Shown: positions 9,675 to 45,223 of the stretch, one piece after another
How the letters are laid out: the number at the start of each line of letters is the position of its first letter
How positions within the stretch are numbered: position 1 is the first letter of the stretch
DNA from: Asanoa ferruginea
GTDB lineage: Bacteria; Actinomycetota; Actinomycetes; Mycobacteriales; Micromonosporaceae
Assembly (NCBI RefSeq): GCF_003387075.1
Contig: NZ_QUMQ01000001.1
Span: forward strand, 1,178,001 to 1,242,000
DNA: 64,000 nucleotides
Direction of reading: 5' to 3'
Translations under genes and position numbers: made by a program
Notes under the pieces: model-generated
Databases searched by the model: none
Seen by the model: the letters and a program-made list of their open reading frames with translations, nothing else
What the model was told of the DNA's origin: nothing

Positions 9675-10625
9675 TCAGAGGTTCGCGACGTCGCCCTGCT
9701 TGGCGCGGACCGCCTCGGCGGCCTCGCCCAGGGCGGCCCGCTCGGACTCGGTGAGCTCGGTCTCGACGACCCGCTTCACGCCGCCGGCACCGATCTCGGC
9801 CTCGACACCCAGGTAGACGCCGGAGATGCCGTATTCGCCGTCGACCCAGGCGCAGACCGGCAGCACGACGCCGCTGTCCTCGGCGACCGCGCGGGCCATC
9901 TTGGCGGCGGCGGCCGACGGTGCGAAGTAGGCCGAACCGGTCTTGAGCAGCGCGACCACCTCGGCACCACCGTTGCGGGTGCGGGTGACCAGCTCGTCGA
10001 TCTTCTCGGCCGGGAGCAGCTCGCCCAGCGGCTTGCCGTTGACCGTGCACTGCGACGGCACCGGCACCATGGTGTCGCCGTGCGAGCCGAGGGTCAGCGT
10101 CTTGACCGCGCCGACCGGCACGGCCAGCGTCTCGGCGACGAAGTTGCTGAACCGGGCGGTGTCGAGCATGCCGGCCTGGCCGAGCACCTGGTTCTTCGGG
10201 AAGCCGGTGGCGAGCTGGGCCAGCGCGGTCATCTCGTCGAGCGGGTTGGAGACGACGATCACCACGGCGTCCGGCGCGTGGCGGGCGACCTGCTCGGCGA
10301 CGCCCCGAACGATCTTGGCGTTGGTCTCCAGGAGGTCCATCCGGCTCATGCCCGGCTTGCGCGGCAGGCCAGCCGTGATGACGACGATGTCGGAGCCGGC
10401 GATCTTCTCGTAGCCGGAGCCGTCGGTGCCGGTGGTGACGCCGACGACCTGGGTCTCGAAGCCCTCGATCGGCCGCGACTGGTTGATGTCGAGGGCCAGG
10501 CCCTCGGGCTTACCGTCGATGATGTCGGTGAGTACGACCGTGTCGAAGACGTCGTATTCAGCCAGCCGCTGCGCCGTCGTCGAGCCGTAGAAACCGGCAC
10601 CGACGACGGTGACCTTCTTGCCCAT
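9675..10625 (-). CDS. mdh: Malate dehydrogenase (LDH-like type)
   Basis: The 316-residue enzyme interconverts malate and oxaloacetate with NAD(H) in the TCA cycle. Visible elements are the Rossmann glycine motif VVGAGFYGSTTAQ, the NAD-ribose aspartate in VVLTDI, the substrate loop LPRKPGMSRMD with its arginines, VVSNPLDEMT and the catalytic histidine in LGSHGDTMV. Arg rather than Gln in the mobile loop supports malate over lactate specificity. GGGAG lies upstream of ATG 10625. The gene is separated from the upstream M23 peptidase by the long structured element at 10694-10861. Confidence 0.95.
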   Translation of the reverse strand: MGKKVTVVGAGFYGSTTAQRLAEYDVFDTVVLTDIIDGKPEGLALDINQSRPIEGFETQVVGVTTGTDGSGYEKIAGSDIVVITAGLPRKPGMSRMDLLETNAKIVRGVAEQVARHAPDAVVIVVSNPLDEMTALAQLATGFPKNQVLGQAGMLDTARFSNFVAETLAVPVGAVKTLTLGSHGDTMVPVPSQCTVNGKPLGELLPAEKIDELVTRTRNGGAEVVALLKTGSAYFAPSAAAAKMARAVAEDSGVVLPVCAWVDGEYGISGVYLGVEAEIGAGGVKRVVETELTESERAALGEAAEAVRAKQGDVANL

Positions 10626-10693: not shown

Positions 10694-10861
10694 TAGGGGT
10701 CTGTCCTGGTGATCAGTGCGATCCGAGACGGAGTCCAGGCGTCGTCTGGTGGTGGCCCGGGATTGCCGGGATACCGGTGTTGTATCTCGGTGATCCCGGG
10801 ACGCCGCCAGGCGGCGCCTGGGCCCGTCGCAGGACGCGCTGATTGCCAGGACAGACCCCTA
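10694..10861 (-). repeat. Long structured hairpin element, copy A
   Basis: The ends are a perfect 16-bp inverted repeat (10694-10709 with 10846-10861). Further in, 10733-10748 pairs with 10808-10823 (16/16 with G-U) and CCCGGGAT 10756-10763 pairs with 10793-10800. The tip is GGATACCGGTGTTGTATCT (10769-10787), in which GATAC/GTATC close a 7-nt loop. The whole element can fold as one imperfect hairpin. The stop codon of the minus-strand M23 gene (10859-10861) lies inside the outer arm. Copy B at 43632-43797 shares the tip and spacing exactly. It could act as terminator/3'-UTR structure, mobile palindrome or ncRNA. Confidence 0.85.
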
Positions 10862-12022
10862 GGGGCACCAGCCGTTGACCGGGTCACTGCGGCCGGTCCA
10901 GAGGAACGCGTCGCTGATCCAGGAGCCGTCGGTGAGCTTGTTCCACATCTTCGTGGTGTAGCCGTAGCGCCCGGTCTGCGCGGTGCCGTTGGCCGAGCAG
11001 GCGATATCGACGGTCGCGCCGTCGGCGGTCGTGCCGGCGACGGCGTACCCGGTGCCGGGGCCTTTCCGCCGGTTGAGCTTGGTGCCGCCGTTGGTGTCGA
11101 CGATGCCCTGCCGGAAGCCCAGCTTGCCGTAGTTGTAGAGGCCACCGCCGACATTGACCCGGGTCGAACCGTGCAGCGCGTAGCCGCCGTAGGCCGCGCC
11201 CTCCTGCCGGATCGTCCACTTGCCGACCCCGTAGCGGTCGATGGGCACGTATTTGTTGTTGTAGCGCAGCGAGAAGTGCACGTGCGCGCCGGTCGACGAG
11301 CCGCCGCAGGTGACGTCGTTGCCGATGTTGCCGAGGAAGTCGCCCTCCTGGACCTGCTTGCCGCTGGCCTTGATGTTGCCGGAGAGGTGGTAGTAGTCGG
11401 TCGCGTACCCGCGGTCGTGAATCACCCGCATCCACCCCGTGCCCGACGAGCACATCGTGTACGCGAGCCCGCCGCGCGCCGCGAGCACCCGCCCGTCGCC
11501 GCCGGACAGGTCGATCGAACTCAGCGGGCCGCCGCTCATCGGGTGCGGTCCGCCGGTCAGCCGCCAGGTCTGGCCGAGCGCCCACGGCAACCGCAGGCCG
11601 GTGCGCCGGTCGAGACCAGCCTCGGTGCGGCTCCGGTCGACACCGAAGACCCGCCGTTCCTCGCCGCTGAGGATGCTCGCCTTGCTGGCCATGTTGGCGA
11701 ACGCGGACTCACCCTCGAACGCGGCGGTCCAGACACCCTTGGTGCGGCGGGCGACGAAGAGCCAACCCTCCGGGTAGGCGCCGGCGCTCTCCCGGGCCGG
11801 CAGCACGGCCGTGCCGAAGCCCCAGGTGCGATTGGTCCGCTTCGCGACGGTCACCTGCGGGTCGGGCGCCGCGGCGGTGGTCGTCTTACTGCGCGAGATC
11901 AGCAGTTGCCGCACCACGTCGACGAGGTCATCCTTGGGACCGGCATGAGCCTGGGCGACTCCGGCAGATCCGATCAGTGTGGTTAGGACAGCAGATACGG
12001 CAATTGCGATACGGAGTCGCAT
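10859..12022 (-). CDS. Secreted M23 (LytM-type) peptidase with C-terminal SH3-like region
   Basis: The 387-residue protein has a Sec signal (RLRIAIAVSAVLTTLIGSAGVAQAHA). The middle carries the M23 peptidase region: the HDRGYATDYYHLSG stretch, a QEGDFLGNIGN turn and the C-terminal metal motif GAHVHFSLRYN. It should be a zinc endopeptidase acting on peptidoglycan or wall peptides outside the cell. The last ~80 residues (GPGTGYAVAGTTADG through DAFLWTG) look like a bacterial SH3 wall-binding domain. The usual first H-x4-D ligand motif is less clear, so activity is likely but not certain. The stop codon lies within repeat copy A. Confidence 0.82.
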   Translation of the reverse strand: MRLRIAIAVSAVLTTLIGSAGVAQAHAGPKDDLVDVVRQLLISRSKTTTAAAPDPQVTVAKRTNRTWGFGTAVLPARESAGAYPEGWLFVARRTKGVWTAAFEGESAFANMASKASILSGEERRVFGVDRSRTEAGLDRRTGLRLPWALGQTWRLTGGPHPMSGGPLSSIDLSGGDGRVLAARGGLAYTMCSSGTGWMRVIHDRGYATDYYHLSGNIKASGKQVQEGDFLGNIGNDVTCGGSSTGAHVHFSLRYNNKYVPIDRYGVGKWTIRQEGAAYGGYALHGSTRVNVGGGLYNYGKLGFRQGIVDTNGGTKLNRRKGPGTGYAVAGTTADGATVDIACSANGTAQTGRYGYTTKMWNKLTDGSWISDAFLWTGRSDPVNGWCP

Positions 12023-43278: not shown

Positions 43279-43599
43279 GTGAGCAACCCCTACCCGCCGG
43301 AGGGCTACGGGCCGCCCGGTTATGGCCCGCCCGCCCAGCCGCAGAACACGCTCGGGCTCGTGTCGATGATCCTCGGCATCATCTCGATCCCGCTGTCCTG
43401 CTGCCGCGGCATCGGCCTGGTCTTCGGCATCGCCGCCATCGTGCTCGGTTATCTGGGCAAGCAGAAGGTGGCGCAGGGCCTGGCCAACAACGGCAGCCAG
43501 GCGCAGGCCGGTTTCATCTGCGGCATCGTCGTTGCCGGCCTCGGCCTCCTGCTGATCATCCTGACGGTCGTCCTCAACGTCGCCCTGCCCGGCAACTGA
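43279..43599 (+). CDS. DUF4190-domain small membrane protein
   Basis: A 106-residue protein from GTG 43279 behind GGAAGGA. A Pro/Gly/Tyr-rich N-terminus ([20 protein letters not shown]) is followed by two hydrophobic spans ([37 protein letters not shown]) around an ALGYLGKQK-like basic loop. This is the DUF4190 layout common in actinobacteria; function unknown. It is divergent from purN and terminated by the hairpin at 43620-43644. Confidence 0.82.
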
Positions 43600-43619
43600 T
43601 CCAGCGTTCCGGGTCCTCG

Positions 43620-43644
43620 CGAGGCAGGCCGAAGGCCTGCCTCG
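43620..43644 (+). terminator. Hairpin after the DUF4190 gene
   Basis: CGAGGCAGGCC (43620-43630) and GGCCTGCCTCG (43634-43644) form an 11-bp stem over a GAA triloop. The right arm is also the left end of repeat copy B, and the left-arm sequence recurs at 43785-43795, so alternative pairings compete. Confidence 0.7.
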
Positions 43645-43797
43645 TGGATCACGGTGGTGCTCCGGCGAGGTCCAGGCGGCGTCCGGGCGTGCGCGGAGAG
43701 TGGTCGGATACCGGTGTTGTATCTGGCCGGTCTTCGCGTGCGGTCGGACGTCGTCTGGGCCCGGCGGAGTGCCGCCTTGGTCCACGAGGCAGGCCTT
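43632..43797 (-). repeat. Long structured hairpin element, copy B
   Basis: A perfect 17-bp inverted repeat forms the ends (43632-43648 with 43781-43797). Stem 43670-43684 pairs with 43746-43760 (15/15 with G-U). The tip GGATACCGGTGTTGTATCT is at 43706-43724. Distances from stem to tip (36 nt left, 30 nt to the CTGGGCCCG block right) equal those in copy A, while the end sequences differ. The stop codon of the minus-strand DUF6350 gene (43796-43798) overlaps its end, as in copy A. Confidence 0.85.
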
Positions 43798-45223
43798 AAG
43801 GGCCGGCGAGGGCCCGGGTCGCGGCGGCGCCGACCGTGGCGCCGATCGTCACGACGATCGTGCCGGCCAGCGCGACCTGCCAGGCCACGGGTCCCATGTC
43901 GACCAGCAGCGGCCCGCCGACCGAGCCGCGGGAGACCTGCGCGGCCAGGCCGAGCAGCAGCCCGGCGACCGGCCCGCCGACCGCGGCGGCACCGACCAGG
44001 GCACCCCACGAGCGGTCGCGGCCGTAGCGGTCGCCGGCCCGCAACCGGAGCACCCGGCGGGCCAGCAGCCAGCCGGCGATCATGCCGGCCAGCAGCGGCA
44101 GCGCGAGCAGCAACGCGCCCAGGCCGCCGACCGGACCTTGCGGAATCCCGGCGGCCAGCGGCACCGGCAGCAGCGAACCGACGTCGACCTCGGTGGTCCG
44201 CACGGTGGTGTCGACACCCACCGCGAAGCCGGGACCGAGCAGGTAGGCGGCGGCCCAGACGGCGGCGTTCGGCGCGTAGGCCAGGCAGATCAGCGTGATG
44301 CCCACCTGGCCGGCGACCCCGGTGCGGTAGGCGCCGAGCACGTCGGCGGCGTCACCACCGCTGAGCGCGACCGAAAGCCCGGCCATCGCGGCACCGGCGC
44401 CGAGCACCAGGACCGCGCCGACCACGCCGGTGCGGATCCCGTCGCGCAGCACCGGCCGCATCCGGACCGCGGTGACCCGCAGGGCTCCGGTCACCCGCAG
44501 CGCACCGACCAGTGCCGCGACCGTGCCGAAGACGGTCAGGTTGAGGAACGCCCGCAGCGCGGAGACCTGCATCCCGGGCTGGTCGACGAGCAGCGCGGCG
44601 GCCGTGCCGACCACGCCGTAGCCGAGTCCGACGGTGAGCGCCACGGTCGCGGCCTGCAACGGTGACCCGCGCTGGGCGATGCCGTAGGCGCGGCTGGTGT
44701 GCACCCCGGCGCGGGCCACCCGCCAGGCGGCGAAGACGGCGACGGCGAGGGGCGGAAGACCGAGCGGACCCAGAGACGTGCCCAGGGGTACGCCGTGCGC
44801 GAGCAGCCAGCCGGCCAGCCCGGCGCGGGTGGCCCCGCCGAGTTCGCTGACCCCCGCGGTGAGCTGGGCCAGGGTGAGCGCGACGGCGACCGGCAGGAAC
44901 GAGACGGTCGCGGCGAACAGGGCGGCGACCGAGCCGGCGATCAGCAGCGGCGCCCGGCCGGCGTCGCGCGGCGCCGGTCGCTGGCGGGGCAGCCGGACCG
45001 TCTCGCGGTTGCCCACGTCGATCCGCTCGGTGATCCGGTTGTCCGGCTCCGGCTGGAGATCAGGTTCGGGCTCCGGTGCGCGGCGCAACGGCGGGTCGTC
45101 GTGGCGCGGCAGGTCGAAACCGATCGCCGATTGGTCCGTGCCCATGCCGGGGATCGGGCCCGCCGGCGGGTCCCGCTGGTCGTCGGCGGCCGGGGACTGG
45201 CCGTCGGGGGTCGGACTGCGCAT
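43796..45223 (-). CDS. DUF6350-family polytopic membrane protein
   Basis: A 475-residue protein with a ~115-residue charged N-terminal cytoplasmic region and roughly ten or more hydrophobic spans (LLIAGSVAALFAATVSFLPV, VALTVGLGYGVVGTAAALLV). I recognise it as the actinobacterial DUF6350 family, sometimes labelled a cell-division membrane protein. Its position next to purN-purH and sucCD is conserved across many actinobacteria (from general knowledge). Function unknown. The stop lies in repeat copy B. Confidence 0.82.
   Translation of the reverse strand: MRSPTPDGQSPAADDQRDPPAGPIPGMGTDQSAIGFDLPRHDDPPLRRAPEPEPDLQPEPDNRITERIDVGNRETVRLPRQRPAPRDAGRAPLLIAGSVAALFAATVSFLPVAVALTLAQLTAGVSELGGATRAGLAGWLLAHGVPLGTSLGPLGLPPLAVAVFAAWRVARAGVHTSRAYGIAQRGSPLQAATVALTVGLGYGVVGTAAALLVDQPGMQVSALRAFLNLTVFGTVAALVGALRVTGALRVTAVRMRPVLRDGIRTGVVGAVLVLGAGAAMAGLSVALSGGDAADVLGAYRTGVAGQVGITLICLAYAPNAAVWAAAYLLGPGFAVGVDTTVRTTEVDVGSLLPVPLAAGIPQGPVGGLGALLLALPLLAGMIAGWLLARRVLRLRAGDRYGRDRSWGALVGAAAVGGPVAGLLLGLAAQVSRGSVGGPLLVDMGPVAWQVALAGTIVVTIGATVGAAATRALAGP

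Follow-up and report, generated by a model that had tools for sequence, protein, structure and literature searches.

The window analysed here, a stretch of 64,000 nucleotides from Asanoa ferruginea, holds two copies of one long hairpin element. Copy A occupies positions 10694..10861 with its tip strand on the plus strand, and this span takes in the whole element and two TA target duplications; it is defined by the end-to-end fold, the flank pattern, the covariance-model match and the empty site in relatives. The left TA (10694..10695) is read from the flank pattern of 63 copies and the single CTAG in the empty sites, and the right TA (10860..10861), which lies within the stop codon of a peptidase M23 gene, from the flank pattern and the empty sites. 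Between them, on the plus strand, are a left outer arm (10696..10718), a structured core hairpin (10719..10836) and a right outer arm (10837..10859) pairing with the left one. On family-level evidence the arms are probably matching terminal inverted repeats of the IS5 type, and the core is kept across end types in alignment A2 and model R2. The conserved tip, GGATACCGGTGTTGTATC (stem GATAC/GTATC, 7-nt loop), is at 10769..10786 on the plus strand.

The M23 gene (10859..12022, minus strand; PF01551, 42.2 bits) has a TAG stop that is regenerated by the element's end. The preliminary description had the element start at this codon; since the gene is on the minus strand, its TAG is the right end of copy A, at 10859-10861, and not position 10694. 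The other flank is formed by a gene of the lactate/malate dehydrogenase family (9675..10625, minus strand; PF00056, PF02866), which runs away from copy A. Copy B, recognized by its fold and flank pattern and having no clean TA at its left end, extends from AGG to CCT at 43633..43796, again with the tip strand on the plus strand and the tip at 43706..43723. The TAA stop of a DUF6350 gene (43796..45223, minus strand; PF19877) overlaps its right end. A small gene (43279..43599, plus strand, stop at 43599), with a DUF4190 match of 30.7 bits that is below the Pfam cut-off of 35, converges on it from the left. In the relatives, the convergent genes are separated by a short, ordinary terminator-like stem whose loop corresponds to the copy-B site (window 43605-43815; L358, L361), and in the window copy B is inserted inside that stem.

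Folding of 201-nt stretches gave -162 kcal/mol for copy A and -171 kcal/mol for copy B, with z-scores of -14.6 and -14.9 and none of 200 shuffles as good in either case. Both copies are thus end-to-end hairpins, as had been proposed, and the differing terminal arms reported for them are real, the arms of each copy still pairing within that copy. In the same 9.07-Mb genome, the tip occurs 13 times exactly, three more times with two mismatches and once with three, and a reversed control pattern does not occur at all. By eye, a whole hairpin is formed at 15 of these 17 places and is absent from L014 (two mismatches) and L017 (three mismatches). The AGG-to-CCT spacing of the 15 copies is nearly uniform at 164-166 bases, and in 34 of the 65 consensus pairs the pairing is kept with both sides changed. 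The preliminary description had made its reading depend on the existence of further copies with conserved pairing, and such copies are plainly present.

A structural-model search of the genome and its relatives, as that description had advised, was run with a covariance model (R1) built from the 15 own copies. It returned the same 15 at 130-174 bits (170.6 bits for copy A, itself part of the model) with only a few weaker places at 58 bits or below, and it matched in 25 of 61 genomes, counting the own genome and five others of the genus. Scanning GTDB genomes for the exact tip yielded at least 120 tip-bearing stretches outside the own genome; since the scan selects the exact tip, tip conservation in this set is partly built in. 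Among the matches listed, 114 of 120 carry record names of genera that we take to be Micromonosporaceae. The other six of the 120 listed come from Glycomyces, Streptomyces, Adlercreutzia, Sediminibacillus and two MAGs. A phylum search with the model R2, which scored the best 10 candidates per genome and recovered 10 of the 15 own copies, matched in at least 5 of 346 genomes. Both window copies therefore belong to a family of about 165 bp in actinobacteria, mainly Micromonosporaceae.

A loose tip pattern gave 170 elements that were kept, with 12 set aside for poor outer pairing and eight for lying at an edge. Five of the 12 (L146, L165, L189, L199, L247) are in unrelated genomes and look like chance. 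Six were refolded: L176, L267 and a second place in L149 are long hairpins, and L186, L198 and L246 lack one arm, the right arm being present and the left replaced or lost, which suggests one-sided intermediates or decayed copies.

The core of the hairpin covaries strongly. In an alignment of 40 diverse copies, 38 of 41 core pairs showed double-sided changes, a value reached by none of 500 shuffles and far above slid controls, with the proviso that the core structure was derived from the same alignment and so favours its own covariation score; 93% of the cells in this alignment are paired. Some pairs stay wobble in most sequences, and one is mostly wobble in both forms, being U-G in 15 and G-U in 14 of the 40. 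Read by eye, the cores of distant families (L323, L326, L330, L049, L052, L055, Micromonospora copies) share GCAAGGCGGAG on their left side and GACAACGC on their right side, and A's there are unpaired or may form G-A contacts; the shared region could be a protein-binding internal loop.

Named RNA classes do not account for the element. Searches with Rfam 15 at the gathering score gave no matches in the window or in 14 related loci. At E<1 around copy A, seven weak matches appeared, all under the cut-off. These (viral intronic RNA, miRNAs, VA RNA, DUF3800-IV at 31.8 vs 60.7 bits) were set aside, as they look like scores that any long hairpin would obtain. Copy A had no blastn match in plasmid or phage collections, and the exact tip had none in IMG/VR.

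The flanks of the copies show how they came to their places. Over 63 copies the majority pattern is YTA[GG...CC]TAR, that is, the element starts with GG, ends with CC and has TA duplicated on either side; T is at -1 in 49 copies, A at +1 in 47, and A or G at +2 in 58. All five other genomes of the genus have the empty site CCTAGGGG in place of copy A at the M23 gene end, the tip being found nowhere in their 3.3-kb copy-A loci. Copy B is likewise absent from 5/5 of these genomes, with no clean TA on its left and no clear CTAG in the relatives' empty sites. When the joined flanks of eight further elements were searched, seven had junction-spanning matches in at least one relative, and for five of the seven the old site is a plain CTAG: L004 (5/5 relatives), L069 (3/3), L100 (2/2), L057 (1/1) and L006 (2/3). 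The old site is not a plain CTAG for L008 (0/4 relatives) and L010 (0/1), and L071 gave no junction-spanning match. Because of the empty sites, the target duplications and the IS-type ends described below, the hairpin is a mobile element and not a standing RNA gene of the host.

The outer 22 bp or so of the elements resemble the terminal inverted repeats of IS5-family insertion sequences. For comparison, 19 IS copies with inverted repeats and a TA or TNA duplication, corresponding to about ten distinct IS, were obtained from 43 DUF4096-family loci. At one end or more, 17 of these agree with an arm of some element in 16-20 of the first 20 bases, as against 2000 random stretches drawn from element-holding loci, whose median is 12, 99th centile 15 and maximum 20. 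The ends of L117 (12/20) and L314 (15/20) are not above chance, and copy A's own arm is the best match only for IS L117, at 12/20 positions. Of 38 IS ends compared, just one is identical to an arm at 20/20 positions, and the best-matching arm for a given IS is usually in another genome. The proteins of all four IS scanned matched NF033580 (NCBIfam, IS5 family); three scores exceed the cut-off, and that of L314 is under it (67.6 vs 110); DUF4096 was found in 4/4 and a DDE domain in 3/4. The genome of KJ-029 holds an IS with the terminal inverted repeat GAGACTGTCGGG and the target duplication TAA beside elements carrying GAGACTGTCGGG ends.

The genomes G004, G035 and KJ-029 contain IS5 copies whose ends resemble those of the elements. 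The own genome has no match to PF01609 (DDE_Tnp_1) and a single match to PF13340 (DUF4096), L110 (G000:C1:8344382-8344600), around which no pair of terminal repeats with a duplication was found; it is possibly a helper remnant. The elements of the own genome therefore look like orphans today, with no intact helper visible. The core was not seen in six IS compared, where the likeness stops after about 22-24 bp. The search for an IS origin of the core in these six gave only short weak matches, the best with E 7e-4 and outside the IS bounds. In G004:C1, 12 of the 13 DUF4096 matches lie on the contig's minus strand, to either side of the origin.

The best explanation is a family of non-autonomous, IS5-helped miniature elements (MITEs) of about 165 bp with matched ends, a core hairpin and a TA or TNA duplication, a reading to which we give a probability of roughly 0.85. 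Judged from sequence comparison, its mobility most likely depends on IS5-type transposases acting in trans. A transposase of the IS5 family encoded elsewhere would bind both ends and insert the element at CTAG. The features by which MITEs are recognized are found here: the elements are short (the 15 own copies), lack a transposase gene and have terminal inverted repeats; target duplications and empty sites are present, for copy B only in part as it lacks a clean TA; and the ends are shared with autonomous elements, 17 of the 19 IS copies reaching at least 16/20 to some arm. The earlier statement that no named class matches the hairpin thus holds for Rfam 15 and fails for the broad kind, the MITE. 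No description of this element family was found in the open-access literature.

Several known elements are comparable. YPAL (RU-2) of Yersinia is described in PMC2229807 as a palindromic, mobile element of about 168 bp with empty and filled sites, having termini without a TA motif, duplications of 3 to 26 bp and internal repeats. On that account it is like the present family in length, palindromic form and mobility, and differs in that the present family has IS5-type end repeats and TA or TNA duplications and lives in an unrelated host group. PMC2229807 also presents Correia/NEMIS, ERIC and RUP as non-autonomous elements of <200 bp with terminal inverted repeats, TA ends and foldable RNA, and the present family shares all of these traits as given there. 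It also has one core with several end types and duplication lengths, and matched-pair changes at the ends, which may set it apart from Correia/NEMIS, ERIC and RUP. With the IS5-family IS themselves (NF033580, DUF4096 + DDE) the elements share the terminal inverted repeats and the duplication, TA at CTAG or TNA, the core being no part of the six IS compared.

The position of the copies relative to host genes bears on whether the hairpin could be a structured RNA selected in the host, such as a 3' UTR stabiliser, a terminator or a regulatory RNA placed after stop codons. The count of stop-codon distances proposed in the preliminary description was made for 148 of the 170 elements, with genes taken not from annotation but as frames that are 270 nt or longer and rich in G+C at the third position; it put a gene end within 60 nt of 119 of them. 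This proximity, the core covariation and the preference of one strand for G-U pairs all favour a host RNA. The orientation to the genes is random, however, with 39 elements sense only, 39 antisense only, 41 between two such genes and 29 with neither, and on this ground a role in the host 3' UTR was rejected. The A and B sites are empty in 5/5 related genomes, no Rfam family is reached at the gathering score, and the target CTAG is often already a stop. Intrinsic terminators are not matched either: orientation is random, and the right flanks are mostly AR, rich in G+C and free of a T run. A host-selected RNA is accordingly a highly improbable reading.

The link with stop codons can be understood from the target. 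YPAL elements also lie near stop codons. Exact coincidence of the stop with an element end was seen in 95 of 160 cases, and the stop was TAG in 115 of the 160. Among the 72 of the 170 elements scored for this comparison (89 had no TAG/CTA at both ends and nine were at an edge), 23 have a stop on both sides, 38 on one and 11 on none, vs 9, 64 and 118 of 191 unoccupied CTAG sites; 73 of the 191 are a stop themselves. The excess must be in part due to selection against insertions in genes. As can be seen in the sequence, the leading G and the duplicated TA restore TAG on each side, and convergent genes sharing one CTAG keep their stops. With TAG regenerated on each side, the element can lie between convergent genes and damage neither, which suggests how elements of this sort can occupy stop codons harmlessly.

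The two strands of the element are unequal. In 62 disjoint sister pairs, pairing being scored alike for G-U and A-C, one-sided changes on the tip strand were of the Watson-Crick/G-U kind 164 times and of the Watson-Crick/A-C kind 22 times, with a split of 97 to 13 in the core and 67 to 9 in the outer arms. By sister pair, 50 lean to G-U, two to A-C and 10 tie. Over all cells, G-U is in excess in 141 of the 170 elements, A-C in 19 (mostly Micromonospora), and the two are equal in 10; in the middle region the two kinds are balanced at 196 to 186, in part from A-C mismatches fixed in subfamilies. One strand has evidently been kept foldable, because G-U and A-C should be about equal without selection on a single strand. 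The asymmetry speaks for RNA or a single DNA strand and against a symmetric cruciform, in which the palindrome would be used as double-stranded DNA. Near-perfect palindromes of about 165 bp are what a cruciform needs, but it treats both strands alike and so predicts equal G-U and A-C counts instead of 164 and 22; only in the middle region, where some subfamilies have fixed A-C mismatches, are the counts about equal. Of all the readings considered, the cruciform has the smallest probability. The claim that the element is a selected RNA or cruciform structure and no simple repeat thus survives in its covariation and its one foldable strand, and finds no support for the cruciform or for a standing RNA of the host. 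Under the MITE reading, the fold of the tip strand, as single-stranded DNA or as RNA, would serve the element and not the host, and the core may hold the strand in the fold or bind a protein.

A relation to replication is also seen. With dnaA as the origin and the terminus set opposite to it, 45 of 58 copies have their tip strand as the leading-strand template (p = 3e-5; 49 of 63 when counted with the model strands); five of the 24 places of G004 are outside the set of 58 as they have no tip fitting the pattern. By chromosome, the count is 12 of 15 in the own genome, G000 (p = 0.035), and 18 of 19 in G004 (p = 8e-5). G035, with its sequence in three contigs, has 15 of 24, which is not significant (p = 0.31). 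Where the genes around an element are arranged symmetrically, the bias is seen as well (23 of 28 with the tip strand as the leading-strand template, p = 0.0009). The count of strand bias proposed earlier has therefore given a replication bias in two of three chromosomes and a random orientation to host genes (39:39). The bias may reflect replication-linked insertion or the loss of copies with the better-folding strand in the lagging-strand template.

Strand-specific folding and replication-biased orientation are also what would be expected of a single-strand mobile element of the HUH, IS200-IS605 or REP type that moves as a folded DNA strand. The direction of the bias is, however, opposite to that expected of a tip strand taken from and put into the lagging-strand template, and the TA or TNA duplications and the inverted repeats are common to the DDE-type IS5 elements. 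To our knowledge, HUH elements have no target duplication and no such inverted repeats; REP/RAYT and IS200-IS605 elements are likewise recognized by the lack of a target duplication, which is present here. This makes a very improbable case for an HUH-type element.

The changes in the outer arms are mostly paired. The 62 sister pairs from all genomes used 124 of the 170 elements, and in each sister pair the RNAfold structure of one member supplied the pairing. Their outer arms have 118 double and 91 single changes, their cores 13 double and 144 single ones (p = 1.6e-23). In the 54 pairs with at most four outer double changes, the counts are 64 to 78 for the arms vs 10 to 122 for the core (p = 6.6e-13). 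A greater age of the arms was considered as the cause and rejected: at matched divergence (0.116 changed pairs per bp in the arms of 41 younger pairs, 0.110 in the cores of 21 older pairs) double changes still make up 58% in the arms vs 10% in the core (p = 3.5e-14). In the 24 copies of G035, counted as sequences and not as events, the 24 outer pairs have 94 double cells that go from one Watson-Crick pair to another (105 double in all) vs 35 one-sided ones, and the inner stem five double vs 103 one-sided. Many of the double cells in G035 come from whole arms of another type; single-base double changes also occur there in copies with the common arm (L082, L083, L087, L088, L089, L091, L096).

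Two independent mutations could hardly give double arm changes when the cores of the copies compared differ at 0-3 places. Because the paired changes occur between copies with almost identical cores, they agree better with one arm having been copied from its partner than with slow mutation followed by selection. The core of the same molecule is an inner control for the double-sided changes of the arms. Selection for symmetric ends alone was discarded on reasoning, as the second change away from the helper's sequence would not help. A higher symmetry of element arms than of IS ends was considered and is unsupported, 479 of 4285 outer cells being not Watson-Crick.

Copying of this kind might be purely mutational, by template switching at quasipalindromes during replication with no selection on structure. 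According to PMC8794818 and PMC8604942, template switching homogenises arms and inverts spacers. Double changes do occur between copies with identical cores, and by eye L140 and L148 have a body that looks inverted relative to the tip, as arm-to-arm template switching would give. Template switching should, however, be no weaker near the tip than near the ends, and the core has 13 double vs 144 single changes; nor does it predict G-U over A-C at 164:22 or the survival, judged by eye, of similar internal loops in distant families. A purely mutational origin is therefore unlikely. The RNA hairpins maintained by template switching, whose compensatory changes arise together according to PMC8794818, differ in that the double changes here gather in the terminal arms of a mobile element and are not spread over the whole stem. 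Since the core should not escape ordinary template switching, the copying is better placed at the element ends, most simply with one strand folded out. The exposed single strand of the MITE would fold and one arm would be recopied from the other, the ends staying matched. A one-sided change or a newly gained end would by this route spread to both arms, and a change of helper might become possible.

The ends have indeed differed around one core. The end types GGGNCTGTC (TA), GTGCGGTGTCC (TA), GAGACTGTCGGGAAA (TNA) and GAGGTCCTAACT (TNA) are found on the same core, and further end types occur in other actinobacterial families. KJ-029 (Micromonosporaceae) has three end types with cores 82-89% and arms 32-44% identical. 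In M. musae, the TA-type L145 and the TNA-type L222 have cores 93% identical and arms 58% identical. Across end classes within one genome the core identity is 77-93%, as shown in two genomes other than that of the window. Therefore the ends, and with them likely the helper, have changed around a standing core.

As a tentative extension, which we hold to be possible but doubtful, the core could be a selfish single-strand module that folds in a replication-linked manner, gains an IS end, copies this end across the hairpin and switches between helper transposases. If this is true, the element is a helper-switching hitchhiker, and its 'covariation' is written by its own life cycle. Such a course suggests a way for a non-autonomous element to escape dependence on one helper. 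Covariation is a standard sign of functional RNA, and here it may have been produced by how the element moves; pipelines for RNA discovery in actinobacteria could miscall these hairpins as new RNA classes.

Shorter hairpins of about 60 to 115 bp with like ends, in which the tip or much of the core is deleted, were also seen: L107 (G004:C1:2860097), L105 (G000:C1:1170792-1170891), L101 (G000:C1:367377) and L256-L259 (G035). They are probably derivatives by internal deletion. Two elements of different subfamilies, L012 and L015 (G000:C1:8087986-8089094), lie in the same orientation about 0.9 kb apart.
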